64,000 nt of DNA from Cornus controversa (taxonomy: Eukaryota > Streptophyta > Magnoliopsida > Cornales > Cornaceae). The position numbers and the translations under genes were made by a program. Shown one piece after another: positions 1-38,753 of the stretch; the first letter of the stretch is position 1; each line of letters starts with the position of its first letter. The stretch lies in assembly GCA_026545225.1 (NCBI GenBank), contig CM048847.1:1550001-1614000 (forward strand). The letters run 5' to 3'. A model generated the notes under the pieces. That model was not told the origin of the DNA and did not search any database. It saw only the letters and a program-made list of their open reading frames with translations.

Positions 1-212
1 GAATCAAAAAGAGTAATTCCATGCTGCACCCATGAATGATCACAACCGTATAGTGCTCTATGCCAACTTCAACCATCTGGACAAGTAAAAGAAACAATTC
101 CCAAGCTATCGATGATTTTAAACAAGTTTAGTTTGAGTTGTTCTGATTCAAAAACCCATTCCTTGAGAAGTCGTGCCATAATCAGAATCGTAAGTTTCTT
201 TTTTCCAAATTA

Positions 213-293
213 GACCATCAAAACATCCAAAAGAAGTGACGAACATGTCAATCCGATCTTCATCACAACCATATGGTGCTTTGTTCCAAGTTC
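213..293. repeat. Satellite monomer A (truncated, 81 bp)
   Basis: It starts GACCATCAAAACATCC and runs through AATCCGATCTTCATCACAACC to the next core. Compared with monomer C it lacks 61 bp between GATCTTC and the ATCACAACC-like stretch. In C the missing part begins at the ATC of CTTCATC and ends just before the GACGACAACC that corresponds to GATCACAACC of monomer F. The end of the segment carries the perfect 10-bp palindrome ACCATATGGT (268-277); other units have ACCGTATGGT. Confidence 0.8.
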
Positions 294-436
294 GACCGTT
301 TGGACATCTAAAGGAAACAATTAGCAAGCTACCAACCATTTTAAACTTGTTTCATTTGAGTTGCTTTGATTTGAAAACCGCATTCCAAGAGAAGTCGTGC
401 CATAATACTAATCGTACGCTGCTTTTTTCTAAATGA
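294..436. repeat. Satellite monomer B (full length, 143 bp)
   Basis: The core reads GACCGTTTGGACATC, followed by AAAGGAAACAATTAGCAAG and a TTTTAAACTTGTTTCATTTG segment that contains the dyad AAAC-TT-GTTT. It ends in the T-rich run GCTTTTTTCTAAATG ahead of monomer C. It is the unit in which the array-wide landmark ACCAACCAT lies. From about 42 kb onward some copies lose one T in GAGTTGTTTTGATTC, which produces the 735-bp HORs. Confidence 0.8.
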
Positions 437-578
437 AACCATCAAAGCGTCCCAAAGAAACGACGAGCATGTCAATCCGATCTTCATCTGTGTTTGTTTG
501 AGTTGTTCTGAGTCGAAAGAAAAATTGCTTGCAATAATCAGGCATGACGACAACCGTATGTCGCTTTGTGCTAGAATT
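437..578. repeat. Satellite monomer C (full length, 142 bp)
   Basis: The core AACCATCAAAGCGTCCC is followed by AAAGAAACGACGAGCATG, AATCCGATCTTCAT, and a GTTTGTTTGAGTTGTTCTGA segment. Much of its 5' half matches monomer A closely (CATGTCAATCCGATCTTCAT), which makes A the internally deleted counterpart of C. Sub-variants carry ATCTGTGTTTG, ATCCGTGTTTG or ATCCATGTTTG, and these are useful labels for tracing which HORs were co-amplified. Confidence 0.8.
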
Positions 579-719
579 GACCATCTGGATGTCCAGAAGA
601 ATAGAGAATGACAAGAACAGTTTTAAACTTGTTTCGTTTGACTTGTCCTGATTCGAAAAGTCCCAATCCACGTGAAATCGTGCCATACCAAGAATTATAC
701 GTTGCTTTATGCCAAATTC
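579..719. repeat. Satellite monomer D (full length, 141 bp)
   Basis: The core GACCATCTGGATGTCC is followed by AGAAGAATAGAGAATGACAA, a TTTTAAACTTGTTTCGTTTG segment, TGTCCTGATTCG and TCCACGTGAAATCGTGCCAT. It holds a CACGTG palindrome (669-674 here) that recurs once in nearly every HOR; a few units have CATGTG. The two TGTCC words, 54 bp apart, matter for the origin of monomer E. Confidence 0.8.
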
Positions 720-806
720 AACCGTCAGGATGTGCTGAATCAAAAAGAGTAATTCCATGCTGCACCCATGAATGATCAGAACCGTATGGTGCTCTATGCC
801 AACTTC
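720..806. repeat. Satellite monomer E (truncated, 87 bp)
   Basis: The core AACCGTCAGGATGT runs directly into CCTGAATCAAAAAGAGTAAT. Aligned to monomer D this skips exactly the 54 bp between D's two TGTCC words (141 minus 54 is 87). Here the word reads TGTGCTGA in this unit and TGTCCTGA in most others. It ends in CATGAATGATCACAACCG and GCTCTATGCCAACTTC before monomer F. Confidence 0.8.
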
Positions 807-948
807 AACCATCTAGACAAGTAAAAGAAACAATTCCCAAGCTATCGATGATTTTAAACAAGTTTAGTTTGAGTTGTTCTGATTCAAAAACCCATTCCTT
901 GAGAACTCGTGCCATAATCAGAATCGTAAGTTTCTTTTTTCCAAATTA
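807..948. repeat. Satellite monomer F (full length, 142 bp)
   Basis: The core AACCATCTAGACAAG (CTGGACAAG in most units) is followed by AAACAATTCCCAAGCTATCG, TTTTAAACAAGTTTAGTTTG, CCCATTCCTTGAGAAGTCG and the run TTTCTTTTTTCCAAATTAG. It contains the dyad TAAAC-AA-GTTTA. Both retrotransposons in the window inserted in this monomer, at CTATC (about base 36) and GAAGT (about base 97). Confidence 0.8.
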
Positions 949-2547
949 GACCATCAAAACATCCAAAAGAAGTGACGAACATGTCAATCCGATCTTCATC
1001 ACAACCATATGGTGCTTTGTTCCAAGTTCGACCATTTGGACATCTAAAGGAAACAATTAGCAAGCTACCAACCATTTTAAACTTGTTTCATTTGAGTTGC
1101 TTTGATTCGAAAACCGCATTCCAAGAGAAGTCGTGCCATAATACTAATCGTACGCTGCTTTTTTCTAAATGAAACCATCAAAGCGTCCCAAAGAAACGAC
1201 GAGCATGTCAATCCGATCTTCATCTGTGTTTGTTTGAGTTGTTCTGAGTCGAAAGAAAAATTGCTTGCAATAATCAGGCATGACGACAACCGTATGTCGC
1301 TTTGTGCTAGAATTGACCATCTGGATGTCCAGAAGAATAGAGAATGACAAGAACGGTTTTGAACTTGTTTCGTTTGACTTGTCCTGATTCGAAAAGTCCC
1401 AATCCACGTGAAATCGTGCCATACCAAGAATTATACGTTGCTTTATGCCAAATTCAACCGTCAGGATGTCCTGAATCAAAAAGAGTAATTCCATGCTGCA
1501 CCCATGAATGATCACAACCGTATAGTGCTCTATGCCAACTTCAACCATCTGGACAAGTAAAAGAAACAATTCCCAAGCTATCGATGATTTTAAACAAGTT
1601 TAGTTTGAGTTGTTCTGATTCAAAAACCCATTCCTTGAGAAGTCGTGCCATAATCAGAATCGTAAGTTTCTTTTTTCCAAATTAGACCATCAAAACATCC
1701 AAAAGAAGTGACGAACATGTCAATCCGATCTTCATCACAACCATATGGTGCTTTGTTCCAAGTTCGACCGTTTGGACATCTAAAGGAAACAATTAGCAAG
1801 CTACCAACCATTTTAAACTTGTTTCATTTGAGTTGCTTTGATTTGAAAACCGCATTCCAAGAGAAGTCGTGCCATAATACTAATCGTACGCTGCTTTTTT
1901 CTAAATGAAACCATCAAAGCGTCCCAAAGAAACGACGAGCATGTCAATCCGATCTTCATCTGTGTTTGTTTGAGTTGTTCTGAGTCGAAAGAAAAATTGC
2001 TTGCAATAATCAGGCATGACGACAACCGTATGTCGCTTTGTGCTAGAATTGACCATCTGGATGTCCAGAAGAATAGAGAATGACAAGAACAGTTTTGAAC
2101 TTGTTTCGTTTGACTTGTCCTGATTCGAAAAGTCCCAATCCACGTGAAATCGTGCCATACCAAGAATTATACGTTGCTTTATGCCAAATTCAACCGTCAG
2201 GATGTGCTGAATCAAAAAGAGTAATTCCATGCTGCACCCATGAATGATCAGAACCTTATGGTGCTCTATGCCAACTTCAACCATCTAGACAAGTAAAAGA
2301 AACAATTCCCAAGCTATCGATGATTTTAAACAAGTTTAGTTTGAGTTGTTCTGATTCAAAAACCCATTCCTTGAGAACTCGTGCCATAATCAGAATCGTA
2401 AGTTTCTTTTTTCCAAATTAGACCATCAAAGCATCCAAAAGAAGTGACGAACATGTCAATCCGATCTTCATCACAACCGTATGGTGCTTTGTTCCAAGTT
2501 CGACCGTTTGGACATCTAAAGGAAACAATTAGCAAGCTACCAACCAT

Positions 2548-2920
2548 TTTAAACTTGTTTCATTCAACCATCAGGACATCCTGAATCAAAAATAATAATT
2601 CCTTGCTGCACTCATGAATGATCACAACCATATGGTGCTCTATGCCAACTTCAACCATCTGGAAAAGTAAAAGAAACAATTCCCAAGCTATCGAGGATTT
2701 TAAACAAGTTTAGTTTGAGTTGTTCTGATTCAAAAACCCATTCCTTGAGAAGTCGTGCCTTAATCAGAATCGTAAGTTTCTTTTTCCAAATTAGACCATC
2801 AAAGCATCCAAAAGAAGTGACGAACATGTCAATCCGATCTTCATCACAACCGTATGGTGCTTTGTTCCAAGTTCGTCCATTCGGACATCTAAAGGAAACA
2901 ATTAGCAAGCTACCAACCAT
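2548..2920. repeat. Truncated HOR (373 bp instead of 736)
   Basis: The landmark spacing drops from 736 to 373 bp. At 2555-2575 the monomer B sequence AACTTGTTTCATT passes directly into CAACCATCAGGACATCC of monomer E, so the rest of B, all of C and D, and the start of E (363 bp) are missing. The breakpoint shows a 3-base overlap, ATT (2562-2564), shared by the two parent sequences. This looks like an illegitimate deletion rather than an in-register exchange. Confidence 0.85.
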
Positions 2921-5900
2921 TTTAAACTTGTTTCATTTGAGTTGTTTTGATTCGAAAACCGCATTCCAAGAGAAGTCGTGCCATAATACTAATCGTACGC
3001 TGCTTTTTTCTAAATGAAACCATCAAAGCGTCCCAAAGAAACGACGAGCATGTCGATCCGATCTTCATCCATGTTTGTTTGAGTTATTCTGACTCGAAAA
3101 GAACAATTGCTTGCAATAATCAGGCATGACGACAACCGTATGGCGCTTTGTGCTAGAATTGACCATCTGGATGTCCAGAAGAATAGAGAATGACAAGAAT
3201 GGTTTTGAACTTGTTTCGTTTGACTTGTCCTGATTCGAAAAGTCCCAATCCACGTGAAATCGTGCCATACCAAGAATTATACGTTGCTTTATGCCAAATT
3301 CAACCGTCAGGATGTCCTGAATCAAAAAGAGTAATTCCATGCTGCACCCATGAATGATCACAACCGTATAGTGCTCTATGCCAACTTCAACCATCTGGAC
3401 AAGTAAAAGAAACAATTCCCAAGCTATCGATGATTTTAAACAAGTTTAGTTTGAGTTGTTCTGATTCAAAAACCCATTCCTTGAGAAGTCGTGCCATAAT
3501 CAGAATCGTAAGTTTCTTTTTTCCAAATTAGACCATCAAAACATCCAAAAGAAGTGACGAACATGTCAATCCGATCTTCATCACAACCATATGGTGCTTT
3601 GTTCCAAGTTCGACCGTTTGGACATCTAAAGGAAACAATTAGCAAGCTACCAACCATTTTAAACTTGTTTCATTTGAGTTGCTTTGATTTGAAAACCGCA
3701 TTCCAAGAGAAGTCGTGCCATAATACTAATCGTACGCTGCTTTTTTCTAAATGAAACCATCAAAGCGTCCCAAAGAAACGACGAGCATGTCAATCCGATC
3801 TTCATCTGTGTTTGTTTGAGTTGTTCTGAGTCGAAAGAAAAATTGCTTGCAATAATCAGGCATGACGACAACCGTATGTCGCTTTGTGCTAGAATTGACC
3901 ATCTGGATGTCCAGAAGAATAGAGAATGACAAGAACGGTTTTGAACTTGTTTCGTTTGACTTGTCCTGATTCGAAAAGTCCCAATCCACGTGAAATCGTG
4001 CCATACCAAGAATTATACGTTGCTTTATGCCAAATTCAACCGTCAGGATGTCCTGAATCAAAAAGAGTAATTCCATGCTGCACCCATGAATGATCACAAC
4101 CGTATGGTGCTCTATGCCAACTTCAACCATCTGGACAAGTAAAAGAAACAATTCCCAAGCTATCGATGATTTTAAACAAGTTTAGTTTGAGTTGTTCTGA
4201 TTCAAAAACCCATTCCTTGAGAAGTCGTGCCATAATCAGAATCGTAAGTTTCTTTTTTCCAAATTAGACCATCAAAACATCCAAAAGAAGTGACGAACAT
4301 GTCAATCCGATCTTCATCACAACCATATGGTGCTTTGTTCCAAGTTCGACCGTTTGGACATCTAAAGGAAACAATTAGCAAGCTACCAACCATTTTAAAC
4401 TTGTTTCATTTGAGTTATTTTGATTCGAAAACCGCATTCCAAGAGAAGTCATGCCATAATACTAATCGTACGCTGCTTTTTTCTAAATGAAACCATCAAA
4501 GCGTCCCAAAGAAACGACGAGCATGTCGATCCGATCTTCATCCATGTTTGTTTGAGTTATTCTGAGTCGAAAAGAACAATTGCTTGCAATAATCAGGCAT
4601 GACGACAACCGTATGGCGGTTTGTGCTAGAATTGACCATCTGGATGTTCAAAAAAATAGAGAATGATAACAACGGTTTTGAACTTGTTTCGTTTGACTTG
4701 TCCTGATTTGAAAAGTCCAATCCACGTGAAATCGTGCCATACTTAGAATTATACATTGCTTTATGCCAGATTCAACCATCAGGACGTCCTGAATCAAAAA
4801 TAGTAATTCCTTGCTGCACTCATGAATGATCACAACCGTATGGTGCTCTATGCCAACTTCAACCATCTGGAAAAGTAAAAGAAACAATTCCCAAGCTATC
4901 GAGGATTTTAAACAAGTTTAGTTTGAGTTGTTCTGATTCAAGAACCCATTCCTTGAGAAGTCGTGCCTTCATCAAAATCGTAAGTTTCTTTTTTCCAAAT
5001 TAGACAATCAAAGCATCCAAAAGAAGTGACGAACATGTCAATCCGATCTTCATCACAACCGTATGGTGCTTTGTTCCAAGTTCGACCGTTTGGACATCTA
5101 AAGGAAACAATTAGCAAGCTACCAACCATTTTAAACTTGTTTCATTTGAGTTGTTTTGATTCGAAAACCGCATTCCAGAAGAAGTCGTGCCATAATACTA
5201 ATCGTACGCTGCTTTTTTCTAAATGAAACCATCAAAGCATCCCAAAGAAACGACGAGCATGTCAATCCGATCTTCATCCGTGTTTGTTTGAGTTGTTTTG
5301 AGTCGAAAGAACAATTGCTTGCAATAATCAGGCATGACGACAACCGTATGGCGCTTTGTGCTAGAATTGACCATCTGGATGTCCAGAAGAATAGAGAATG
5401 ACAAGAACGGTTTTGAACTTGTTTCGTTTGACTTGTCATGATTCGAAAAGTCCAATCCACGTGAAATCGTGCCATACCTAGAATTATACGTTGCTTTATG
5501 CCAAATTCAACCGTCAGGATGTCCTGAATCGAAAAGAGTAATTCCATGCTGCACCCATGAATGATCACAACCGTATGGTGCTCTATGCCAACTTCAACCA
5601 TCTAGAAAAGTAAAAGAAACAATTCCCAAGCTATCGAGGATTTTAAACAAGTTTAGTTTGAGTTGTTCTGATTCAAAAACCCATTCCTTGAGAACTCGTG
5701 CCATAATCAGAATCGTAAGTTTCTTTTTTCCAAATTAGACCTTCAAAGCATCCAAAAGAAGTGACGAAAATGCAATCCGATCTTCATCACAACCGTATGG
5801 TGCTTTGTTCCAAGTTCGACCGTTTGGACATCTAAAGGAAACAATTAGCAAGCTACCAACCATTTTAAACTTGTTTCATTTGAGTTGTTTTTATTTGAAA

Positions 5901-7878
5901 ACTGCATTCCAAGAGAAGTCGTGCCATAATACTAATCGTACGCTGCTTTTTTCTAAATGAAACCATCAAAGCGTCCCAAAGAAATGACGAGCATGTCAAT
6001 CCGATCTTCATCCGTGTTTGTTTGAGTTGTTCTGAGTCGAAAGAACAATTGCTTGCAATAATCAGGCATGACGACAACCGTATGGCGCTTTGTGCTAGAA
6101 TTGACCATCTGGATGTCCAGAAGAATAGAGAATGACAAGAACGGTTTTGAACTTATTTCGTTTGACTTGTCCTGATTTGAAAAGTCCAATCCACGTGAGA
6201 TCGTGCCATACTTAGAATTATACATTGCTTTATGCCAAATTCAACCATCAGGACATCCTGAATCAAAAATAGTAATTCCTTGCTGCACTCATGAATGATC
6301 ACAACCATATGGTGCTCTATGCCAACTTCAACCATCTGGAAAAGTAAAAGAAACAATTCCCAAGCTATCGAGGATTTTAAACAAGTTTAGTTTGAGTTGT
6401 TCTGATTCAAAAACCCATTCCTTGAGAAGTCGTGCCTTAATCAGAATCGTAAGTTTCTTTTTCCAAATTAGACCATCAAAGCATCCAAAAGAAGTGACGA
6501 ACATGTCAATCCAATCTTCATCACAACCGTATGGTGCTTTGTTCCAAGTTCGACCATTCGGACATCTAAAGGAAACAATTAGCAAGCTACCAACCATTTT
6601 AAACTTGTTTCATTTGAGTTGTTTTGATTCGAAAACCGCATTCCAAGAGAAGTCATGCCATAATACTAATCGTACGCTGCTTTTTTCTAAATGAAACCAT
6701 CAAAGCGTCCCAAAGAAACGACGAGCATGTCAATCCGATCTTCATCCGTGTTTGTTTGAGTTGTTCTGAGTCGAAAGAACAATTGCTTGCAATAATCAGG
6801 CATGACGACAACCGTATGGCGGTTTGTGCTAGAATTGACCATCTGGATGTCCAGAAAAATAGAGAATGACAAGAACGGTTTCGAACTTGTTTCGTTTGAC
6901 TTGTCCTGATTCGAAAAGTCCCAATCCACGTGAAATCGTGCCATACCTAGAATTATACGTTGCTTTATGCCAAATTCAACCGTCAGGATGTCCTGAATCG
7001 AAAAGAGTAATTCCATGCTGCACCCATGAATGATCACAACCGTATGGTGCTCTATGCCAACTTCAACCATCTGGACAAGTAAAAGAAACAATTCCCAAGC
7101 TATCGATGATTTTAAACAAGTTTAGTTTAAGTTGTTCTGATTCAAAAACCCATTCCTTGAGAAGTCGTGCCATAATCAGAATCGTAAGTTTCTTTTTTCC
7201 AAATTAGACCATCAAAACATCCAAAAGAAGTGACGAACATGTCAATCCGATCTTCATCACAACCGTGTGGTGCTTTGTTCCAAGTTCGATAGTTTGGACA
7301 TCTAAAGGAAACAATTAGCAAGCTACCAACCATTTTAAACTTGTTTCATTTGAGTTGTTTTGATTCGAAAACCGCATTCCAAGAGAAGTCGTGCCATAAT
7401 ACTAATCGTACGCTGCTTTTTTCTAAATGACACCATCAAAGCGTCCCAAAGAAACGACGAGCATGTCGATCCGATCTTCATCCATGTTTGTTTGAGTTAT
7501 TCTGACTCGAAAAGAACAATTGCTTGCAATAATCAGGCATGACGACAACCGTATGGCGCTTTGTGCTAGAATTGACCATCTGGATGTCCAGAAGAATAGA
7601 GAATGACAAGAATGGTTTTGAACTTGTTTCGTTTGACTTGTCCTGATTCGAAAAGTCCCAATCCACGTGAAATCGTGCCATACCAAGAATTATACGTTGC
7701 TTTATGCCAAATTCAACCGTCAGGATGTCCTGAATCAAAAAGAGTAATTCCATGCTGCACCCATGAATGATCAGAACCGTATGGTGCTCTATGCCAACTT
7801 CAACCATCTAGACAAGTAAAAGAAACAATTCCCAAGCTATCGATGATTTTAAACAAGTTTAGTTTGAGTTGTTCTGAT

Positions 7879-9350
7879 TCAAAAACCCATTCCTTGAGAA
7901 CTCGTGCCATAATCAGAATCGTAAGTTTCTTTTTTCCAAATTAGACCATCAAAGCATCCAAAAGAAGTGACGAACATGTCAATCCGATCTTCATCACAAC
8001 CATATGGTGCTTTGTTCCAAGTTCGACCGTTTGGACATCTAAAGGAAACAATTAGCAAGCTACCAACCAATTTAAACTTGTTTCATTTGAGTTGTTTTGA
8101 TTCGAAAACTGCATTCCAAGAGAAGTCGTGCCATAATACTAATCGTACGCTGCTTTTTTCTAAATGAAACCATCAAATTGTCCCAAAGAAACGACGAGCA
8201 TGTCAATCCGATCTTCATCCGTGTTTGTTTGAGTTGTTCTGAGTCGGAAAGAACAATTGCTTGCAATAATCAGGCATGACGACAACCGTATGGCGCTTTG
8301 TGCTAGAATTGACCATCTGGATGTCTAGAAGAATAGAGAATGACAAGAACGGTTTCGAACTTGTTTCGTTTGACTTGTCATGATTCGAAAAGTCCAATCC
8401 ATGTGAAATCGTGCCATACCTAGAATTATACGTTGCTTTATGCCAAATTCAACCGTCAGGATGTCCTGAATCGAAAAGAGTAATTCCATGCTGTACCCAT
8501 GAATGATCACAACCGTATGGTGCTCTATGCCAACTTCAACCATCTGGACAAGTAAAAGAAACAATTCCCAAGCTATCGAGGATTTTAAACAAGTTTAGTT
8601 TGAGTTGTTCTGATTCAAAAACCCATTCCTTGAGAAGTCGTGCCATAATCAGAATCGTAAGTTTCTTTTTTCCAAATTAGACCATCAAAACATCCAAAAG
8701 AAGTGACGAACATGTCAATCCGATCTTCATCACAACCATATGGTGCTTTGTTCCAAGTTCGACCGTTTGGACATCTAAAGGAAACAATTAGCAAGCTACC
8801 AACCAATTTAAACTTGTTTCATTTGAGTTGTTTTGATTCGAAAACTGCATTCCAAGAGAAGTCGTGCCATAATACTAATCGTACGCTGCTTTTTTCTAAA
8901 TGAAACCATCAAAGCGTCCCAAAGAAACGACGAGCATGTCAATCCGATCTTCATCCGTGTTTGTTTGAGTTGTTCTGAGTCGGAAAGAACAATTGCTTGC
9001 AATAATCAGACATGACGACAACCGTATGGCGCTTTGTGCTAGAATTGACCATCTGGATGTCTAGAAGAATAGAGAATGACAAGAACGGTTTCGAACTTGT
9101 TTCGTTTGACTTGTCATGATTCGAAAAGTCCAATCCATGTGAAATCGTGCCATACCTAGAATTATACGTTGCTTTATGCCAAATTCAACCGTCAGGATGT
9201 CCTGAATCGAAAAGAGTAATTCCATGCTGTACCCATGAATGATCACAACCGTATGGTGCTCTATGCCAACTTCAACCATCTGGACAAGTAAAAGAAACAA
9301 TTCCCAAGCTATCGAGGATTTTAAACAAGTTTAGTTTGAGTTGTTCTGAT
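7879..9350. repeat. Two adjacent, nearly identical HORs
   Basis: Units 7879-8614 and 8615-9350 share several private variants: ACCAATTTAAACTTG, GAGTCGGAAAGAAC, GATGTCTAGAAG, CCATGTGAAATCG and ATGCTGTACCC. They differ at few positions, for example CAAATTGTCCC against CAAAGCGTCCC. Parts of the first unit (TTGAGAACTCG) instead match the preceding neighbours. This is a recent single-unit duplication. Confidence 0.75.
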
Positions 9351-10105
9351 TCAAAAACCCATTCCTTGAGAAGTCGTGCCATAATCAGAATCGTAAGTTT
9401 CTTTTTTCCAAATTAGACCATCAAAACATCCCAAAGAAGTGACGAACATGTCAATCCGATCTTCATCACAACCATATGGTGCTTTGTTCCAAGTTCGACC
9501 GTTTGGACATCTAAAGGAAACAATTAGCAAGCTACCAACCATTTTAAACTTGTTTCATTTGAGTTGTTTTGATTCGAAAACCGCATTCCAAGAGAAGTCA
9601 TGCCATAATACTAATCGTACGCTGCTTTTTTCTAAATGAAACCATCAAAGCGTCCCAAAGAAACGACGAGCATGTCAATCCGATCTTCATCCGTGTTTGT
9701 TTGAGTTGTTCTGAGTCGAAAGAACAATTGCTTGCAATAATCAGGCATGACGACAACCGTATGGCGGTTTGTGCTAGAATTGACCATCTGGATGTCCAGA
9801 AAAATAGAGAATGACAAGAACGGTTTCGAACTTGTTTCGTTTGACTTGTCCTGATTCGAAAAGTCCCAATCCACGTGAAATCGTGCCATACCAAGAATTA
9901 TACGTTGCTTTATGCCAAATTCAACCGTCAAGATGTCCTGAATCAAAAAGAGTAATTCCATGCTGCACCCATGAATGATCACAACCGTATAGTGCTCTAT
10001 GCCAACTTCAACCATCTGGACAAGTAAAAGAAACAATTCCCAAGCTATCGATGATTTTAAACAAGTTTAGTTTGAGTTGTTCTGATTCAAAAACCCATTC
10101 CTTGA

Positions 10106-10110
10106 GAAGT
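10106..10110. repeat. Left target-site duplication of element 1 (GAAGT)
   Basis: GAAGT lies directly before TGTCACGCC and is repeated at 21148-21152 directly after CCTTACA. It belongs to the satellite context CCTTGAGAAGTCGTGCC. Confidence 0.93.
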
Positions 10111-10288
10111 TGTCACGCCCCGGTTCCCGAGGCCCGGAAACCGAGGTGTGAACCCCGTGAGATCACCCTCACGACATAACCTCCACCTGATCATACAATT
10201 CAATTTCCTATTATTTTTACGAAAATCGGGCATGACCCATTCTAAATAATCAGCTCCTGGCATATTACACCTGCTTTACAATTCATAT

Positions 10289-10361
10289 GGACACTTCTGG
10301 GCACGTGTCCCCCCAGCATTTATATCTAACAGTAAATATGGACACTTCTGGGCCCGTGTCC
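10289..10361 (-). other. Paired hairpins in 3' LTR
   Basis: Two 22-nt inverted repeats lie 51 bp apart: GGACAC...GTGTCC at 10289-10310 and at 10340-10361, each with a 10-nt loop of the type TTCTGGGCAC or TTCTGGGCCC and each followed by a C-run. The arrangement is a tandem duplication of about 51 bp. It recurs in the solo LTR of a diverged subfamily, which suggests constraint. A role in RNA structure (3' end formation, dimerisation or packaging) is only a guess. Confidence 0.65.
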
Positions 10362-10558
10362 CCCCAATATTTCTACAACATGCATAAACAATCATAAATA
10401 TACATGCATCAGTCTTTGAATGTCCGTATTAAATACATCCATCACATGAATAAATACAACTGAAGGAACTGAATCTACGTAATCGCCTCATACATTTAAT
10501 CCAAATGTAATACATCTATCTATCCAAAATCCTGAACATAAATTAGATTCTAAGGAAT

Positions 10559-10720
10559 CTAATTACTACCTCTGTAACTGGTGCTATCAGTTTCCCCAAC
10601 TGACTCCAAAACCAGCAACACCTGCAAAACCTGGGAGGGGGTGAGCTCAAAGGCCCAACAAGGTATGTAGAACCATACTATCACTGCTGCAGCAGGTCGA
10701 TCCTCACATATTCTCAAAAA
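10559..10720 (-). other. Conserved LTR block with splice-acceptor-like end
   Basis: On the minus strand this contains GAGGATCGACCTGCTGC, then TTGGGCCTTTGAGCTCACC, CCCTCCCAGG and TTTTGCAGGTG. About 130 bp align without gaps to the solo LTR at 38410-38540 although the two LTRs are otherwise well diverged. A reading frame is shared, but replacement changes outnumber silent ones among those I could read (about six to three), so a nucleotide-level function is more likely than a peptide. The pyrimidine-rich CCCCCTCCCAG and TTTTGCAG ends resemble 3' splice sites. Confidence 0.5.
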
Positions 10721-11250
10721 TATACTTATGCACTTAAATATATCACAATATTTAAGACCATGCCCCACCTAGCATGCATGAACCAATGATGTATATGGCT
10801 ACTCTAGCACACATGAACATACAAAATCCACTATACATGATTTTAGAAATCATTTTCAACATGCTTGAGAACAGTAAACATTCCGCACCAATATGTATGT
10901 AGAACATATATGTCAAAGCATTTACATGACCAATGTAAATCATCTACCACATTTCCTACTCGACAAGTAGCAATCCCAAATGCAATGAAGATGCATTTAA
11001 ACAGGAAAACATGCTTAACAGATAAACACATAAGCATAAATGTATTTTTCACCTTCCACGGTCATAATCCGATACATAGGACAAGCATCAAAGCTTGCAC
11101 GTACTCTCACTCTCGGTCCTCATCCGATACCCCACATGATTGGCCCGCTCCGAGGATCATGTGACCTAGGACAACTCCAATAACCATCCTATGACCTTGA
11201 CCTACTCCGCCAACGTCATACTTCCGGGGCAATATTTTGGTTTGCCCATT

Positions 11251-11640
11251 GGTGATTAGACCATATCAGCACCGTCACCAATTATTTGTCTACTCAAGGT
11301 GATTAGACCATATCAGCACCGTCACCGAGTATTGGGTAACTCGAAGTGGTTAGACCATATCAGCACCGCCACTGAGCTTATTTTGACTCAAGATGATTAG
11401 ACCATATCAGCACCGTCACCGAGTCTTAGATGGTTCAAGGTGGTTAGACCATATCAGCACCGCCACCGAGTATTTACCTACTCCAGGGTGGATAGACCAC
11501 TGTCACCGAGTATTTACCTACTCCAAGGTGACATAACCGCTCCAACGCCCTCACCGTGACCGAGTATTGACCTACTCTGGGTGATTTGCCTACTTTATGA
11601 CCACAACCATACCCGAGTATTAACCTACTCTAGGTAATTC
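11251..11640 (-). repeat. 47-bp minisatellite inside 3' LTR
   Basis: The word AGACCATATCAGCACC starts at 11258, 11305, 11352, 11399 and 11446, a strict 47-bp period, followed by decayed copies (AGACCACTGTCACC at 11494 and further to about 11640). Copies alternate CCGTCACC and CCGCCACC. The solo LTR lacks this minisatellite, so it separates the two subfamilies. Confidence 0.85.
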
Positions 11641-11659
11641 AACCACACTTCCCCGTTTC

Positions 11660-12740
11660 CTCACAACGGCCCCATATATGCATTTCAAACATATAAACAC
11701 TAAGCATTCAATTTTGTGCTTCACAATGTACAAGCCAGTTTTAAGAAAACATAGTGTACATTTCGTCTCCGCATAACCACACATATAATTACCTATACAT
11801 GTAAACCCACGTACAATCACGTATGTGTCATTTCCCTCCTATACATGCAATATGGATGCATATATACATAGCATAGTACTTTCATGCTTCAACCCATGCT
11901 TATGAATACTAAAAAGAAGTATCTAGCATGCTTCTCATCACATTCCAACACATATAGCACATATATGTTCAATACCCGCATAACACATCACATATGCCAA
12001 CAATTTCAACCCTAGCACTTATTTATCATGCTATAACCCATGCATACATTTTCTATAAACAGATAGCATGCATTTCATTCCCGTAAACCCACATGTAATC
12101 ACGTACATGTCAAATCATGCATATAAATCACATATGCACCTACACTAGCATAAATACAGTCATGCTCTCATTCAATGCATGTATTCATTACAAGTAGCTA
12201 ACATGCATTCCAATCACAATATATATACACATATATATTACATCACCCACATATGTATCAAGAACATATAAAACACTTAGCACATTTCATGCTTTTCAAA
12301 TGCTCGCCAAAAGTTAAATTCAACTTAGCATGCATTTCTACCACTGCAACCATATGTATATATATATATATATAATCACATACATATATATACTTCCTGA
12401 ACACCATGCATAAGAACCACATATGCATACAAGACAACACAGAGCTAAACAGGTATTATTTAGCATGCTTTCCATAGACTTTAATCTATACATACATGCT
12501 TATCACAATGCAATTAGGCGATTAATCTAACATGTTATCGCTTCCCAAACCCGCGCATACATATATATACACACACGCGTATATATATATATATATATAT
12601 ATCCTCTCACATCCCATGTATGTACCACATTCCCTATACACATATATATATAAACGCCTACATATATATGTATATACACATACCACATATGATCAAATTA
12701 ATAACATATGTAAATTACTCAACGTAATAAAATGTACGTA
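11660..12740. repeat. AT-rich, ATGCAT/CATATG-rich zone of 3' LTR with TA microsatellites
   Basis: About 1.1 kb of low-complexity sequence rich in ATGCAT, CATATG and ACATGT words, with TA runs at about 12354-12374 and 12580-12602. No open frame of interest is present. An equivalent zone exists at about 37000-38400 in the solo LTR. Confidence 0.7.
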
Positions 12741-13419
12741 AGAGATAGAGGCAAGAATCAACTTGCCTTAGGTCCCGCTCTCAACTGGTTCGTGCCTGCA
12801 AAGCAGTCCATTTCCAAGTCTGGTCCAGTCCCGTGTCAAAGCCCACACAACAATCCTCTGAACCATCTCCTTGCTCTTTCTGATTTTCGGTCCAACCCAA
12901 AACACGAGCCATAACTTCCTGTTATGCAGACCCTCAAGCCAACACCGAGGCCGGCATCATCAAACCATCCAATCGAAGTTCCAAGTTTCGGCACTATTGT
13001 CGACCCCAAAGCCGAACTCATCAAATCAGAACTGTGGCTGTTACTCCTAGCAACCCCCATGAAAATGCCCAGCTGAGACCAACTGAGACCTTCTGATATT
13101 CAACCCCCGTAGTTACCTCTTCACGGCTCAACCATGAAACCATCCATTCGGCAGCTAGCCTATAACCGGCCACTAACCGAAATCAACCACAAACCTATAC
13201 ATTTGTAGACCTCCAACATCGCAGCCCAAAATATGGTTGCTCAAACAAACCCAACAACTACATACTAGACAGTCCACAACCAAATACAACCCAGCTATCT
13301 GCCGAGTCTCATCCCAAATCCCAATCGAGAAATACCACCATAGAAGCCCAAAATTAACCCCATCGACTCACCTCTGGACATCGGAACAGGTTGTCACCAC
13401 CACTGTCGCTACCAGCCAC

Positions 13420-14025
13420 GACCGCCGAGAAGAAACCCAAAACTCAGCCAAATCGAAACCCCATCAACACCCCGGTCAAGCCACACACGACCCAGTCCGT
13501 GGAACCACCCGAAGACCCAGCCATTTCCGGCCACCACTCAGCCAAGTCGAACCACCAACGTCAGCCCAGCCGCTGCCGTGAACCGAGCCCATCGCCGACT
13601 GACCAAAGCCTCAAACCTCAGCCGCGAAGACTCAGCTGAAGCCACCGTCGGCACCAGCCACGGCCAAACCCACCACCGTGACCTCCGTGACCACCACCAT
13701 CCGGCCGCCACAACCGGAACCACCCGAAAACCCACCGTGATCGGACCCCCATCGAACCAGTCGAAGCCCCCTTCGCGAACGTCTCGGCCGAACCGGGCCA
13801 CCCCGCGTCACCGGGCAACACCACCGTGGGCAACCACGGTCGCCGTCGACGCCTCTGCCGGAGACGACCCCCGCCGCCGCTGATCGGGCCGCCGGAGCCG
13901 ATCTCCCGATCTCTCTCTCTCCTCGGCTTCTCTCTCCCCGGTCTCCTTTTCTCTCTTCTTTTCCTTTTCTTTTTCTTTCTTCTTTTCTTTTCTTTTCTTT
14001 TCTTTTTCTTTCTTCTTTTCTTTTT
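13420..14025 (-). other. GC-rich patch and purine tract of 3' LTR (putative leader region)
   Basis: A GC-rich, CpG-dense stretch (about 13420-13908) adjoins a pyrimidine microsatellite on the plus strand, CT and CTTTT repeats at 13909-14025, which is a GA tract on the element strand. The same order, AT run then GA tract then GC-rich patch, is found in the solo LTR. On the element strand this would lie just downstream of a TATA-rich stretch, so it may be the 5' transcribed leader. Overlapping open frames here are compositional and differ between subfamilies. Confidence 0.5.
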
Positions 14026-14238
14026 AAATTAAAATCCCACCTTTAACACACACCACACAATCCTCACACACATATATGTATATAAACATTATTTATATAT
14101 ATACACATTACATCACACAATACATGTATTCACATGTATTTTCCCACACCTACCTACAATTATGTAAATGCACCCACATTTCTTTATAGTTGCACATGAG
14201 CCCACCACATATTTATAATTTAATATAAATATAGGCAC

Positions 14239-14286
14239 TATATATATATATAGAGATATATATATATATATATACATATACACACA
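14239..14286. repeat. TA/CA microsatellite in 3' LTR
   Basis: Mixed TA dinucleotide run interrupted by GAGA, ending ACATATACACACACC. The other LTR has one extra CA here (about 21015), one of only two length differences between the LTRs that I found. Confidence 0.85.
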
Positions 14287-14405
14287 CCTTCCACTTGGAT
14301 GGAAACATAAATGTCCCTACCCTTTCCGGAATTTTAATTAATCCGAAAAAATTTCAATCCGGTCCAAATTCACCCGGAACCGGTCAAAATATTCCGGTCC
14401 TTACA

Positions 14406-14419
14406 ACCTCCCCTCCTTC
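14406..14419 (-). other. Polypurine tract of element 1
   Basis: On the minus strand GAAGGAGGGGAGGT directly precedes the LTR start TGTAAGG. The PPT primes plus-strand DNA synthesis in reverse transcription. Upstream on that strand is TTTCGAGGACGAAATTCC, a sequence resembling the end of plant Ty3/gypsy polyproteins. Confidence 0.85.
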
Positions 14420-14730
14420 AAGGAATTTCGTCCTCGAAATTAGCATAGTCATGGTCTTTCCAAAACCAATCTTACTAGACGTCATTCTCGCCAATGATCG
14501 TCACTTTCCCTTTCCACATACCATAGGCGCTACACTTGCAACACCTAACTCATAACTCTCAAGTCTTGCACAACAGTGCATCTCGACTGCCGTAAGGCAA
14601 TAGAACCACTTCCGTGACATGGCTGAGTGACTCCTAAGCCCATGTACGGTTCACTCACGAAATCCTCCGAAGCACTTGCGTCGTTGAATCCATAGTCTCT
14701 ATCTCGAGACTTATCAAGCCCATCTCTATT

Positions 14731-14815
14731 CCTAGTCTAAGGCAACACCTTTGACTAATCGTTCCAATCACTCACAGTGATACTTCCCTATAATCCGGGA
14801 TCATCAATACTCAAA
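14731..14815. repeat. Diverged internal duplication, pair 1 copy a
   Basis: CTAGTCTAAGG, CCTTTGACTA, CCAATCACT, CAGTGATAC and TTCCCTA occur in the same order as at 16054-16140, where they read ATAGTCTAAGG, CCTTGACTA, CCAATCACT, CAGTGACAT and ATCCCTA. Similarity is about 70% by eye. Confidence 0.6.
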
Positions 14816-14929
14816 GTCATTCTTTTATTATCAAACATGACTTTCAATCTCTGGCATATCATTCCCGGGCTTAGTCCAATATCCTGGGCATCATCATACC
14901 ACAAACCACATCAATCCAGTGCACATCAC

Positions 14930-15090
14930 AAGCGCACTCACCAGCAAGGCACATGACAGTGTACTCGCCGATAAAAACAACACAAACAGTGTACTTGCCA
15001 CAGCAAGCCACATAATCCTGCCCAGTCTCATGGACTACCACCCACTGGAATCCAATGCCAAGTTCAGGATCTTACATCCCACTAATTTCA
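14930..15090. repeat. Diverged internal duplication, pair 2 copy a
   Basis: The order AAGGCACATGACAGTG, AATCCTGCCCAGTC, GGACTACCACCCACTGG and CAGGATCTTACATCC matches the segment about 510 bp further on (15450-15600), which has AAGGCACATAAGGAGTG, ATCCAGTCCTGTCC, GGACTACATTCCATTCC and AAGATCCTGACTGC. The similarity is weak but colinear. Confidence 0.45.
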
Positions 15091-15449
15091 CAATCTCATT
15101 ACTCAAGAGGAGAAGCATTTATCCCCTTTCATCCTTCACACCAAGGAATCAGTTGACAATTAGAGAGAATTCCTTTCATATCAGCACTTCACTTTAGACA
15201 ACCCTTACCAATGAAAGTTTGAGGTCACCTACAGTAGCCAAACAGCAGCCATACAGTGGCCGTAGCCCACTGCGTCTACACGTCCACTGCGTCCACCTCT
15301 CCCCTTCACGGTAAAAAAAAAATTATCCTCACTTCAGATACCATATGTCAGGATCCTCATCTACTATCAACCCATCTTCCTCTTAACATCATATCCACAC
15401 TGTGATCTAGCTGCATCTATCATGCGCATATCACAGTACACCACTGAGG

Positions 15450-15600
15450 TCAAGGCACATAAGGAGTGCACTTGTCAAAACAAATCATCCAGTCCTGTCC
15501 ATTGTTGTGGACTACATTCCATTCCTTTCCAGCATCTCACTTGAGACCCCAAGATCCTGACTGCTTCGTCTAGGACCTCACAATTCCAGACTTACTTTCA
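15450..15600. repeat. Diverged internal duplication, pair 2 copy b
   Basis: Colinear partner of 14930-15090, recognised from AAGGCACATA, GTGCACTTGTCA, GGACTACATTCC and GATCCTGAC. It shows that the interior grew by duplication. Confidence 0.45.
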
Positions 15601-16053
15601 AAGCCTATCACTATACGTCTATTTCAACATCACAGTCCACTCGGGTTCAAACCTCTACCCAGGTTTACAAATCCTTAAAACCAGGACTTCTAGGTGACTA
15701 CATGTCACTACTAGCCATGCAACACAAAATGCAACACAAAAGGGTAATGCATAGTCACATGAATCAAGTATACCACATAGCATATAACACACAACATGCT
15801 AACCAAATAATCACATACCATGCATGATATGACATATGATGCATAAATCAACCCCCTAGCCCTCGGGCTAAAACTAGGAAAATACCCCTGAACCCACACG
15901 GTCCTGGTACTTCCTCTGCCTGAGCAAGTGTGAAACACGACCCAGTCCCCCTAGTATACACACATACTAAAACACAAATCTAGAGTGGTTCAAACCAACC
16001 TACTCTCATCCTCTGTACTCATTGGTAAACACCTACCAATCTATCCACATCTA

Positions 16054-16140
16054 TAGTCTAAGGTAGTATCCTTGACTATATACACCAATCACTTTCAGTG
16101 ACATATCCCTACTATTGGGAATCCTTTATCTATCGTCATC
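16054..16140. repeat. Diverged internal duplication, pair 1 copy b
   Basis: Partner of 14731-14815, about 1320 bp away, with the same order of AGTCTAAGG, CCTTGACTA, CCAATCACT and ATCCCTA. Confidence 0.6.
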
Positions 16141-16597
16141 CAGACGAAATAACTCAACATCCACAAGAGCCGGCGCATCGTAAGAGAAGCGCTAATCCAA
16201 GAAAAATGTCTGGCCAGGCCACTTTTCCCAGTTAGCCCAACTCTGGCAACATGCCTTCCTTGTATCCCATCTCAATCCCAATTGCCAACCTCGGCAATAC
16301 ACTTACCAACAACACATCATAAGCCCCTAAGTATTTCTAAGGACTTAAGCACTCGCAAACTTCCTTGCGGTATCTCTTCATTGCTCACTAATGAGACTTG
16401 ATCACCAAATCAAATGTCTAAACTCAACCAACTCTGGGAGTTTTACCAACTGAATTCAATTTCATACTAACACTTTGATCTTTCATTAGGATTGCTCCAA
16501 CCGAGCAGATCATTCCACTACCGTCCATATGTAATCAAACATATCGTCCAGACAACTATCAACCATTGCCTATCTCCAAACCATCACGTGATTTGAC

Positions 16598-16839
16598 CAT
16601 CCGTCCTTAGGTATTCGAACCTACGACTTTGATACCCTAGGTTTTCAAACCTAATGCTTTAACAGCAATCCAGAGTTCCTTAATTCCTCAACTCTATCCC
16701 GTCGCCCCTAGGTATTCCAACCTAGTGCTCTCATAGCATTCTGCTATTAGGTACATAATCCAATCTTTTCAACCATACACATGAGATGTCCATCACCCGT
16801 CGTCCCTAGGTATTCTGACCTAGAGCTCTGATACCATTC
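16598..16839 (-). repeat. Four PBS-flanking hairpin modules
   Basis: Four related segments on the plus strand each hold a short inverted repeat followed by a PBS-like word. They are TTAGGTATTCGAACCTAC with ACTTTGATACC (16605-16636), CTAGGTTTTCAAACCTAA with GCTTTAACAGC, CTAGGTATTCCAACCTAG with GCTCTCATAGC (to 16738), and CTAGGTATTCTGACCTAG with GCTCTGATACCA (to 16836). Only the last, next to the LTR, matches initiator Met tRNA over 12 bases. The third has perfect 6-bp arms (CTAGGT/ACCTAG), as does the last. Confidence 0.7.
16825..16836 (-). other. Primer-binding site (initiator Met tRNA)
   Basis: On the minus strand TGGTATCAGAGC lies three bases (GAA) inside the LTR end. It is complementary to the 3' end of plant initiator Met tRNA, the usual primer for minus-strand DNA synthesis in plant Ty1 and Ty3 elements. 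The next bases are TC rather than the commonly seen C/CA, so the match is 12 nt. It fixes the element on the minus strand. Confidence 0.92.
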
Positions 16840-17017
16840 TGTCACGCCCCGGTTCCCGAGGCCCGGAAACCGAGGTGTGAACCCCGTGAGATCACCCTCA
16901 CGACATAACCTCCACCTGATCATACAATTCAATTTCCTATTATTTTTACGAAAATCGGGCATGACCCATTCTAAATAATCAGCTCCTGGCATATTACACC
17001 TGCTTTACAATTCATAT

Positions 17018-17090
17018 GGACACTTCTGGGCACGTGTCCCCCCAGCATTTATATCTAACAGTAAATATGGACACTTCTGGGCCCGTGTCC
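17018..17090 (-). other. Paired hairpins in 5' LTR
   Basis: Second copy of the GGACAC...GTGTCC pair, at 17018-17039 and 17069-17090, unchanged relative to the other LTR. Confidence 0.65.
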
Positions 17091-17287
17091 CCCCAATATT
17101 TCTACAACATGCATAAACAATCATAAATATACATGCATCAGTCTTTGAATGTCCGTATTAAATACATCCATCACATGAATAAATACAACTGAAGGAACTG
17201 AATCTACGTAATCGCCTCATACATTTAATCCAAATGTAATACATCTATCTATCCAAAATCCTGAACATAAATTAGATTCTAAGGAAT

Positions 17288-17449
17288 CTAATTACTACCT
17301 CTGTAACTGGTGCTATCAGTTTCCCCAACTGACTCCAAAACCAGCAACACCTGCAAAACCTGGGAGGGGGTGAGCTCAAAGGCCCAACAAGGTATGTAGA
17401 ACCATACTATCACTGCTGCAGCAGGTCGATCCTCACATATTCTCAAAAA
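17288..17449 (-). other. Conserved LTR block, 5' LTR copy
   Basis: Same block as at 10559-10720, containing the minus-strand words TTTGAGCTCACC and TTTTGCAGGTG, with no difference seen from the left LTR. Confidence 0.5.
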
Positions 17450-17979
17450 TATACTTATGCACTTAAATATATCACAATATTTAAGACCATGCCCCACCTA
17501 GCATGCATGAACCAATGATGTATATGGCTACTCTAGCACACATGAACATACAAAATCCACTATACATGATTTTAGAAATCATTTTCAACATGCTTGAGAA
17601 CAGTAAACATTCCGCACCAATATGTATGTAGAACATATATGTCAAAGCATTTACATGACCAATGTAAATCATCTACCACATTTCCTACTCGACAAGTAGC
17701 AATCCCAAATGCAATGAAGATGCATTTAAACAGGAAAACATGCTTAACAGATAAACACATAAGCATAAATGTATTTTTCACCTTCCACGGTCATAATCCG
17801 ATACATAGGACAAGCATCAAAGCTTGCACGTACTCTCACTCTCGGTCCTCATCCGATACCCCACATGATTGGCCCGCTCCGAGGATCATGTGACCTAGGA
17901 CAACTCCAATAACCATCCTATGACCTTGACCTACTCCGCCAACGTCATACTTCCGGGGCAATATTTTGGTTTGCCCATT

Positions 17980-18369
17980 GGTGATTAGACCATATCAGCA
18001 CCGTCACCAATTATTTGTCTACTCAAGGTGATTAGACCATATCAGCACCGTCACCGAGTATTGGGTAACTCGAAGTGGTTAGACCATATCAGCACCGCCA
18101 CTGAGCTTATTTTGACTCAAGATGATTAGACCATATCAGCACCGTCACCGAGTCTTAGATGGTTCAAGGTGGTTAGACCATATCAGCACCGCCACCGAGT
18201 ATTTACCTACTCCAGGGTGGATAGACCACTGTCACCGAGTATTTACCTACTCCAAGGTGACATAACCGCTCCAACGCCCTCACCGTGACCGAGTATTGAC
18301 CTACTCTGGGTGATTTGCCTACTTTATGACCACAACCATACCCGAGTATTAACCTACTCTAGGTAATTC
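17980..18369 (-). repeat. 47-bp minisatellite inside 5' LTR
   Basis: Identical in layout to 11251-11640, with the AGACCATATCAGCACC word repeated every 47 bp. No copy-number difference from the other LTR is visible, which fits a very recent insertion since minisatellites change quickly. Confidence 0.85.
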
Positions 18370-18388
18370 AACCACACTTCCCCGTTTC

Positions 18389-19469
18389 CTCACAACGGCC
18401 CCATATATGCATTTCAAACATATAAACACTAAGCATTCAATTTTGTGCTTCACAATGTACAAGCCAGTTTTAAGAAAACATAGTGTACATTTCGTCTCCG
18501 CATAACCACACATATAATTACCTATACATGTAAACCCACGTACAATCACGTATGTGTCATTTCCCTCCTATACATGCAATATGGATGCATATATACATAG
18601 CATAGTACTTTCATGCTTCAACCCATGCTTATGAATACTAAAAAGAAGTATCTAGCATGCTTCTCATCACATTCCAACACATATAGCACATATATGTTCA
18701 ATACCCGCATAACACATCACATATGCCAACAATTTCAACCCTAGCACTTATTTATCATGCTATAACCCATGCATACATTTTCTATAAACAGATAGCATGC
18801 ATTTCATTCCCGTAAACCCACATGTAATCACGTACATGTCAAATCATGCATATAAATCACATATGCACCTACACTAGCATAAATACAGTCATGCTCTCAT
18901 TCAATGCATGTATTCATTACAAGTAGCTAACATGCATTCCAATCACAATATATATACACATATATATTACATCACCCACATATGTATCAAGAACATATAA
19001 AACACTTAGCACATTTCATGCTTTTCAAATGCTCGCCAAAAGTTAAATTCAACTTAGCATGCATTTCTACCACTGCAACCATATGTATATATATATATAT
19101 ATAATCACATACATATATATACTTCCTGAACACCATGCATAAGAACCACATATGCATACAAGACAACACAGAGCTAAACAGGTATTATTTAGCATGCTTT
19201 CCATAGACTTTAATCTATACATACATGCTTATCACAATGCAATTAGGCGATTAATCTAACATGTTATCGCTTCCCAAACCCGCGCATACATATATATACA
19301 CACACGCGTATATATATATATATATATATATCCTCTCACATCCCATGTATGTACCACATTCCCTATACACATATATATATAAACGCCTACATATATATGT
19401 ATATACACATACCACATATGATCAAATTAATAACATATGTAAATTACTCAACGTAATAAAATGTACGTA
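18389..19469. repeat. AT-rich zone of 5' LTR
   Basis: Counterpart of 11660-12740, with TA runs at about 19083-19103 and 19309-19331. No gene is seen. Confidence 0.7.
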
Positions 19470-20159
19470 AGAGATAGAGGCAAGAATCAACTTGCCTTAG
19501 GTCCCGCTCTCAACTGGTTCGTGCCTGCAAAGCAGTCCATTTCCAAGTCTGGTCCAGTCCCGTGTCAAAGCCCACACAACAATCCTCTGAACCATCTCCT
19601 TGCTCTTTCTGATTTTTGGTCCAACCCAAAACACGAGCCATAACTTCCTGTTATGCAGACCCTCAAGCCAACACCGAGGCCGGCATCATCAAACCATCCA
19701 ATCGAAGTTCCAAGTTTCGGCACTATTGTCGACCCCAAAGCCGAACTCATCAAATCAGAACTGTGGCTGTTACTCCTAGCAACCCCCATGAAAATGCCCA
19801 GCTGAGACCAACTGAGACCTTCTGATATTCAACCCCCGTAGTTACCTCTTCACGGCTCAACCATGAAACCATCCATTCGGCAGCTAGCCTATAACCGGCC
19901 TCTAACCGGCCACTAACCAAAATCAACCACAAACCTATACATTTGTAGACCTCCAACATCGCAGCCCAAAATATGGTTGCTCAAACAAACCCAACAACTA
20001 CATACTAGACAGTCCACAACCAAATACAACCCAGCTATCTGCCGAGTCTCATCCCAAATCCCAATCGAGAAATACCACCATAGAAGCCCAAAATTAACCC
20101 CATCGACTCACCTCTGGACATCGGAACAGGTTGTCACCACCACTGTCGCTACCAGCCAC

Positions 20160-20765
20160 GACCGTCGAGAAGAAACCCAAAACTCAGCCAAATCGAAACC
20201 CCATCAACACCCCGGTCAAGCCACACACGACCCAGTCCGTGGAACCACCCGAAGACCCAGCCATTTCCGGCCACCACTCAGCCAAGTCAAACCACCAACG
20301 TCAGCCCAGCCGCTGCCGTGAACCGAGCCCATCGCCGACTGACCAAAGCCTCAAACCTCAGCCGCGAAGACTCAGCTGAAGCCACCGTCGGCACCAGCCA
20401 CGGCCAAACCCACCACCGTGACCTCCGTGACCACCACCATCCGGCCGCCACAACCGGAACCACCCGAAAACCCACCGTGATCGGACCCCCATCGAACCAG
20501 TCGAAGCCCCCTTCGCGAACGTCTCGGCCGAACCGGGCCACCCCGCGTCACCGGGCAACACCACCGTGGGCAACCACGGTCGCCGTCGACGCCTCTGCCG
20601 GAGACGACCCCCGCCGCCGCTGATCGGGCCGCCGGAGCCGATCTCCCGATCTCTCTCTCTCCTCGGCTTCTCTCTCCCCGGTCTCCTTTTCTCTCTTCTT
20701 TTCCTTTTCTTTTTCTTTCTTCTTTTCTTTTCTTTTCTTTTCTTTTTCTTTCTTCTTTTCTTTTT
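20160..20765 (-). other. GC-rich patch and purine tract of 5' LTR
   Basis: Counterpart of 13420-14025. The GA tract of the element strand is at 20649-20765. If the LTR promoter lies in the TA-rich stretch to its right (about 20980-21020 or 20810-20860), this would be the start of the element transcript. That is inference from layout only. Confidence 0.5.
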
Positions 20766-20995
20766 AAATTAAAATCCCACCTTTAACACACACCACACAA
20801 TCCTCACACACATATATGTATATAAACATTATTTATATATATACACATTACATCACACAATACATGTATTCACATGTATTTTCCCACACCTACCTACAAT
20901 TATGTAAATGCACCCACATTTCTTTATAGTTGCACATGAGCCCACCACATATTTATAATTTAATATAAATATAGGCACTATATATATATATAGAG

Positions 20996-21029
<34 letters not shown>

Positions 21030-21147
21030 CTTCCACTTGGATGGAAACATAAATGTCCCTACCCTTTCCGGAATTTTAATTAATCCGAAAAAATTTCAAT
21101 CCGGTCCAAATTCACCCGGAACCGGTCAAAATATTCCGGTCCTTACA

Positions 21148-21152
21148 GAAGT
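21148..21152. repeat. Right target-site duplication of element 1 (GAAGT)
   Basis: It follows CCTTACA directly and matches 10106-10110. The landmark at 21320 lies exactly 11,042 bp beyond the expected 10278, equal to the element plus the 5-bp duplication, so no satellite was lost. Confidence 0.93.
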
Positions 21153-35064: not shown

Positions 35065-35069
35065 CTATC
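35065..35069. repeat. Left target-site duplication of the solo LTR (CTATC)
   Basis: CTATC lies directly before TGTAAGGACCGG and recurs at 39074-39078. It is part of the satellite context CCCAAGCTATCGAGG. Confidence 0.93.
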
Positions 35070-35165
35070 TGTAAGGACCGGAATTTTGTTGACCGGTTCC
35101 GGGTGGATTTTGACCGGATTTAATTTTTTTTTTTTGAATAAATTAATTTTGAAAAAAATATGTGG

Positions 35166-35360: not shown

Positions 35361-35410
35361 GACCAAATGATAAGAAGAGAAGATAAGAGAATGAGTGGTC
35401 TCGGCTAAAA

Positions 35411-38400: not shown

Positions 38401-38404
38401 TTTA

Positions 38405-38560: not shown

Positions 38561-38753
38561 CAGAGGTAGTAGTTAAATTCTTTAGAATTTAATGTATAAC
38601 TAGGACATTTGGGTTAGATGTATGGAGCGAATATGGTGATTCAGTTCCTTCAGATGTATTTCATTCATGTGATGTATAGATTTAATACGGACATTCAAGG
38701 ACTGAGGCATGTATAATTATGATTGTTTTATGCATGTTGTAGAAAGTTTGGGG

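Follow-up and report, generated by a model that had tools for sequence, protein, structure and literature searches.

The window analyzed here, a 64,000-nucleotide stretch of the Cornus controversa genome (GenBank assembly GCA_026545225.1, contig CM048847.1, positions 1,550,001 to 1,614,000 of the forward strand), carries a satellite array with a 736-bp repeat unit that is interrupted by a long terminal repeat (LTR) retrotransposon and by a solo LTR (Table 1; all positions are counted from the first nucleotide of the window). We consider it highly probable that this is a noncoding satellite that would have been built by a ladder of tandem duplications, including a stage at which monomers of two classes, A and B, were paired as dimers, and homogenized at 736 bp. 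From its sequence, the unit can be parsed into a run of three A-B dimers, in two of which the B member is shortened.

The 736-bp unit and its two classes of segments

When the first full unit (213 to 948) is aligned on a shared core, motif cores fall at 278, 421, 563, 704, 791, 933, and 1014, and their spacings of 143, 142, 141, 87, 142, and 81 bp total 736 bp, exactly recovering the six core motifs that an earlier note on this DNA had proposed. Its count of four full and two truncated members also stands, the segments M1 to M6 measuring 144, 142, 143, 85, 142, and 80 bp. Across the window, there are 336 exact motif matches (M1, 66; M2, 61; M3, 47; M4, 38; M5, 61; M6, 63). Counted solely among these copies identical to the search words, the spacing is 87 bp from M4 to M5 in 37 of 37 cases, 81 bp from M6 to M1 in 61 of 62, 143 bp from M1 to M2 in 52 of 60, and 142 bp from M5 to M6 in 50 of 57 (one exception, of 4,151 bp, crosses the solo LTR); from M2 to M3 it is 142 bp in 31 of 47 cases and 143 bp in the other 16, and from M3 to M4 it is 141 bp in 18 of 24 and 140 bp in 6. 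The same note expected a period search to give only 736 bp; Tandem Repeats Finder, run with a longest period of 500, instead returned a period of 222 to 224 bp in 61 of 83 rows, with 77 to 82% matches.

Cutting the 63 full units of the array into their segments yielded 374 sequences, 63 each of M1 to M5 and 59 of M6, which is missing from four units that each stand last before a break. In a FastTree tree of these segments, all six types are monophyletic (support: M1, 0.63; M2, 0.88; M3, 0.99; M4, 0.94; M5, 0.98; M6, 0.84; split between A and B, 0.78), and the types cluster by their position in the unit rather than by their location in the window, as had been anticipated. Mean identity within a type is 0.951 to 0.980 (lowest pair, 0.871), against 0.549 to 0.816 between types in one unit; the earlier claim of true higher-order organization is borne out by types that are 95 to 98% alike between units and 55 to 82% alike within a unit. 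The array displays the distinguishing traits of a higher-order repeat, namely, diverged monomer copies within the unit, units that are more alike than monomers, and a head-to-tail arrangement.

The earlier note had not described the two alternating classes into which the segments fall, A (M1, M3, and M5) and B (M2, M4, and M6), in the order A5-B6-A1-B2-A3-B4 along the unit. The A and B halves of dimers have diverged equally (81% identity between M1 and M5 and 82% between M2 and M6), with M3 at 67 to 69% to M1 and M5, M4 at 62 to 63% to M2 and M6, and A versus B at 57 to 64%; overall, identity between the two classes is given as 55 to 65%. The top self-match of the consensus, 227 bp at 81.5%, covers one full A and one B member. 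The best of eight trees tested was ((M1,M5),M3) versus ((M2,M6),M4), which has the same branching order in both classes; its bootstraps were 76, 94, and 88, and 84, 92, and 98 once M4 had been realigned with its gap put at the deletion point. By the approximately unbiased (AU) test, two trees lacking the A/B split were rejected with both the original alignment (P values of 0.0001 to 0.0002) and the realigned one (0.0006 to 0.0008). A rival tree placing M4 with M3 had P values of 0.10 and 0.015, respectively; because this tree is rejected solely after realignment, the assignment of M4 to class B leans on that realignment.

As to the kinship of the six segments, the local alignment score was reached by at most 5 of 1,000 dinucleotide shuffles in 13 of the 15 segment pairs, so that identity in these pairs lies beyond that of randomized sequence. 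A hidden Markov model (HMM) profile of M1, M3, and M5 matched M2 (model positions 3 to 114 to bases 3 to 113; E value, 1.2e-10), M4 (8 to 56 to bases 6 to 54; 5.5e-5), and M6 (3 to 67 to bases 3 to 67; 3.4e-3); the best of 3,000 shuffles had an E value of 0.43. These matches of the B members, in register and above all 3,000 shuffles, therefore support one ancestral monomer of about 142 bp for both classes, as had been claimed. Comparison of monomer halves revealed no finer subrepeat, as the scores were reached by 248 (M1), 411 (M2), 453 (M3), and 401 (M5) of 500 shuffles.

The two shortened members differ in the kind of deletion; both deletions take away the GTTTGAGTTG part of a B member. M6 equals M2 until its last 62 or so bases, which are absent from M6, whereas M4 has lost about 57 bases from its interior. 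For M4, a deletion between short direct repeats is a reasonable guess, because M3 has a pair of TGTCC motifs 54 bp apart and M4 has a single copy at the deletion point; collapse of the M3 pair would give 89 bp, against the actual 85 bp of M4. Among the units between 213 and 63469, variation in M3 and M4 is roughly double that in the other segments (mean minor frequency of 0.034 and 0.030 versus 0.007 to 0.016 elsewhere), an excess that may reflect a few shared variants, as the units are not independent.

The array, its super-periods, and its insertions

With the unit at 213 to 948 as the query, nhmmer returned 70 rows at E values of at most 1e-10, all in the array and all 70 on the plus strand. 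Full units, taken as rows with a query start of at most 2 and an end of at least 730, number 63 in the window, all on one strand; the seven rows left out are one at each end of the window, one on either side of the junction near 2562, and three pieces beside the insertions (two cut on the left sides of the LTR element and solo LTR and one lying right of the latter). The alignment of the 63 units has 738 columns, with 575 of the 736 consensus columns invariant and a mean agreement with the consensus of 98.0%, and pairs of units differ at a median of 24 columns (range, 0 to 45). Unit length is mostly 734 to 738 bp, and the GC content of the array is 38 to 39%, a value that, together with the ends of the LTRs, would suggest a flowering plant. 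The ratio of observed to expected CpG in the 736-bp consensus is 1.03, and such nondepletion is unexpected for long-methylated plant heterochromatin. At the irregular junction, the joined sequences share little homology, which sets it apart from the rest of the array with its 736-bp register. Searches for RNA genes in the window found no tRNA and no Rfam family, and exact 22-base satellite words had no match in viral or genome contig collections, as is expected for plant sequence.

Table 1. Positions of the satellite array, its segments in the first full unit, and the insertions
Feature	Position	Strand	Details
Satellite array, first stretch	1..10110	+	nhmmer; 12 full 736-bp units and partial ones
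M1, class A	264..407	+	Full length, 144 bp; chosen cut points in first full unit; 81% identity to M5
M2, class B	408..549	+	Full length, 142 bp; sole full B member; cut points; 82% to M6 over 80 columns
M3, class A	550..692	+	Full length, 143 bp; most divergent A; 67-69% to M1 and M5
M4, class B	693..777	+	Shortened, 85 bp; internal deletion of ~57 bp; class depends on alignment
M5, class A	778..919	+	Full length, 142 bp; cut points and pairwise alignment
M6, class B	920..999	+	Shortened, 80 bp; lacks final ~62 bp of monomer; cut points
Irregular junction	2562..2564	+	Consensus 1-144 joined to 504 onward; M1 to M4; ~362 bp lost; three-base match overlap
LTR retrotransposon	10111..21147	-	LTRs 10111-14405 and 16840-21147; interior 2,434 bp; target duplication GAAGT (5 bp)
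Satellite array, second stretch	21148..35069	+	nhmmer; 18 full units; 4-unit super-period
Solo LTR	35070..39073	+	4,004 bp; 5-bp target duplication CTATC, intact
Satellite array, third stretch	39074..64000	+	nhmmer; 33 full units; 2-, 5/4 (9)-, and 11-unit blocks; continues past window

Above 736 bp lies a second level of organization, likewise absent from the earlier note, in the form of local blocks of 2, 4, 5, 9, and 11 units. Labels given to the units by single linkage at five or fewer differences read, from left to right, ABA, CBDEFGHII, JKLMJKLNOPQRSTURSV, and WXYZaZaZaZbWXYaZRcYaRRcYaRcYaRRcY, these runs being divided in turn by the irregular junction, the LTR element, and the solo LTR. 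Permuting the unit order 2,000 times and comparing mean differences at a given lag revealed super-periods of 4 units at 21 to 34 kb (18 units; 16.6 versus 24.8 differences; 0 of 2,000 permutations) and, at 39 to 64 kb (33 units), of 5 units (15.6 versus 21.3; 1 of 2,000) and 9 units (15.8; 3 of 2,000). Within this last stretch, lag 2 stands out at 41.4 to 46.5 kb (7 units; 1.2 versus 12.7; 9 of 2,000), and lag 9 stands out at 50.9 to 63.5 kb (17 units; 1.8 versus 21.4; 0 of 2,000). A diagonal scan over shifts of 600 to 29,999, excluding copies that start at 10,000 to 21,200, listed 20 block copies, including 50926 to 57374 against 57552 to 64000 (14 mismatches in 6,449) and 39074 to 41529 against 47167 to 49622 (2 mismatches in 2,456).

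The insertion in the left part of the array is a young LTR retrotransposon with LTRs of about 4.3 kb, a short 2,434-bp interior, and no recognized domain in the frames given to Pfam. Four transitions and 13 gap columns separate its two LTRs (4,295 and 4,308 bp), between which there are no transversions (Kimura two-parameter distance, 0.0009). The element reads on the minus strand, because a stretch complementary to the usual initiator-methionine primer site lies on the plus strand just before 16840. Pfam searches with 8 of the 10 listed frames of the interior gave nothing that reached the cutoff, and a match to Vesiculo_matrix (E value of 0.072; 13.4 bits against a cutoff of 22) was taken as chance; the element is probably nonautonomous. 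A 47-bp tandem repeat is present within the LTRs, at 11251 to 11475 and 17980 to 18204. The solo LTR is related to the other LTR but has diverged from it; the two match in opposite orientation over three separate portions, at 82%, 71%, and 65%.

Removal of each insertion with one copy of its target duplication leaves a split unit of exactly 736 bp, which indicates that the array was continuous before the insertions, and both insertions are later arrivals because both carry target duplications. The solo LTR is absent from the second copy of the 11-unit duplication, although the sequence flanking it is matched there (2 mismatches in 400 on the left and 2 before base 2456 on the right). On the left, however, other units are closer still, so that the flanks do not fix the order of the solo LTR and the 11-unit duplication.

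Origin of the array and competing explanations

In the proposed scheme, a monomer of about 142 bp would have duplicated to give an A-B dimer of about 285 bp, which in turn would have duplicated twice, with A3B4 splitting off first, followed by the separation of A1B2 from A5B6. Two independent deletions would have shortened B4 and B6, and the resulting 736-bp unit might then have become the register of exchange and spread, until, more recently, multiunit blocks arose as copies through unequal exchange or break-induced replication. Both of these processes are published models for such blocks (PMC8997354), and circular DNA made of multiples of a satellite unit is a further one (PMC2543021); the window data do not choose among the three. 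Out-of-register exchange at 223 bp, where the sequences are about 80% alike, is absent, whereas exchange at 736 bp, where they are about 97% alike, is common, and this agrees with the dependence on similarity described in PMC8997354.

Several observations weigh against the scheme. Support in the 374-segment tree is just 0.63 for the M1 clade and 0.78 for the A/B split, and two segment pairs are not significant alone, M3-M6 (score reached by 254 of 1,000 shuffles) and M5-M6 (107 of 1,000). Other branching orders within A (AU P values of 0.21 to 0.25) or within B (0.12 to 0.15) are not rejected. With regard to the super-periods, none was seen at 2794 to 9415 in the first stretch, lag 11 shows no significance across the third stretch as a whole (491 of 2,000 permutations), and the subregions at 41.4 to 46.5 and 50.9 to 63.5 kb were picked after inspection of the data. 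Nucleosome-scale phasing was not evident in the 10-bp power of AA/TT, which 115 of 500 shuffles reached, or of WW (30 of 500). Finally, the evidence comes from one array in one genome.

The regular spacing of about 142 bp and the unfixed branching order within each class would also suit one-by-one growth from a simple 142-bp array, in which six independent monomers were amplified with no dimer stage, and monomeric expansion has been reported in Arabidopsis by the authors of HiCAT. The strict alternation of A and B, the joint divergence of adjacent A-B pairs, and the better fit of the A/B split than of the two unsplit trees (AU P values of 0.0001 to 0.0008) make this route very unlikely. Another explanation, for which the chances seem small though somewhat greater, is a functional centromeric repeat selected because one unit would wrap an integral number of nucleosomes (736 = 4 x 184) or for the spacing of protein sites by the A/B alternation. 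Such selection would account for the strict conservation of unit length, and the alternation recalls the dimers of alpha satellite; the lack of a clear 10-bp periodicity speaks against it, as does the absence of any match to the single CENP-B box pattern tried.

Tandemization of part of a retrotransposon, an LTR or an untranslated region, is a known route to plant satellites (PMC3648361 and PMC7004042), and two LTR insertions do lie within the array. Given that their target duplications make both later arrivals, and that neither of these two insertions, the only retrotransposon sequences compared, contained an nhmmer match to the unit, we regard this origin as the least credible of those considered. 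We prefer the dimer-based ladder of duplications, and the array is most likely an inert heterochromatic satellite, putatively located in or beside a centromere or within some other block of heterochromatin. A bolder extension of that scheme, which we rate as doubtful, would be a five-step ladder preserved within these 64 kb: the monomer would have given an A/B dimer, three dimers the 736-bp unit, such units the 4- and 5-unit blocks, and these in turn a 9-unit block. Each step would be younger than the last, and the confinement of both shortened members to class B would look as though length had been tuned to a fixed unit.

Relation to other satellites

The array shares with primate alpha satellite divergent monomers within a unit, near-identical units, an A/B dimer base, and local nested blocks; this likeness is one of description rather than of compared sequence, and the monomer here is about 142 bp, not about 171 bp, with two of the six shortened. 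The view that higher-order repeats are unusual in plants is overstated, as they have been reported for Arabidopsis and Vaccinium, and the present array is one more addition to the plant satellites with higher-order repeats already in print. Arabidopsis CEN180 and Vaccinium VaccSat1, 2, 5, and 6 are likewise plant satellites whose subunits or monomer patterns are arranged in a higher order. A fixed 736-bp unit of three dimers spans the whole array here, whereas the HiCAT account of Arabidopsis describes monomeric expansion in all centromeres, and the VaccSat units, compared by description and not by sequence, are 36 to 240 bp.

By size alone, and going by its name, Rumex RAE730 has a unit of similar length; it is built from subunits of about 120 bp, versus 142 bp here. 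Maize Cent4, with a unit of 741 nucleotides (PMC3648361), is also close to 736 bp by size alone and also forms a tandem array, of 260 kb in Mo17. Cent4 is homologous to the telomeric repeat (PMC3648361); exact telomere words in the window amount to one TTTAGGG and no CCCTAAA, a count that does not extend to degenerate stretches. No link to this array was found for a 285-bp cowpea repeat or for 142-bp matches in the literature, and the satellite itself was not found there, with six words taken from its sequence among the queries, which means little because most satellite sequences are kept in databases and supplements, outside the literature that was covered.

The array leaves existing knowledge of satellite higher-order repeats unchanged; its layering of satellite repeats is clear but of an ordinary kind. 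Successive duplication steps are recorded in it at separate levels of identity, about 57%, 67%, 81%, 97%, and more than 99%, and it offers a neat natural test both of models for higher-order repeat formation and of software that annotates nested repeats.
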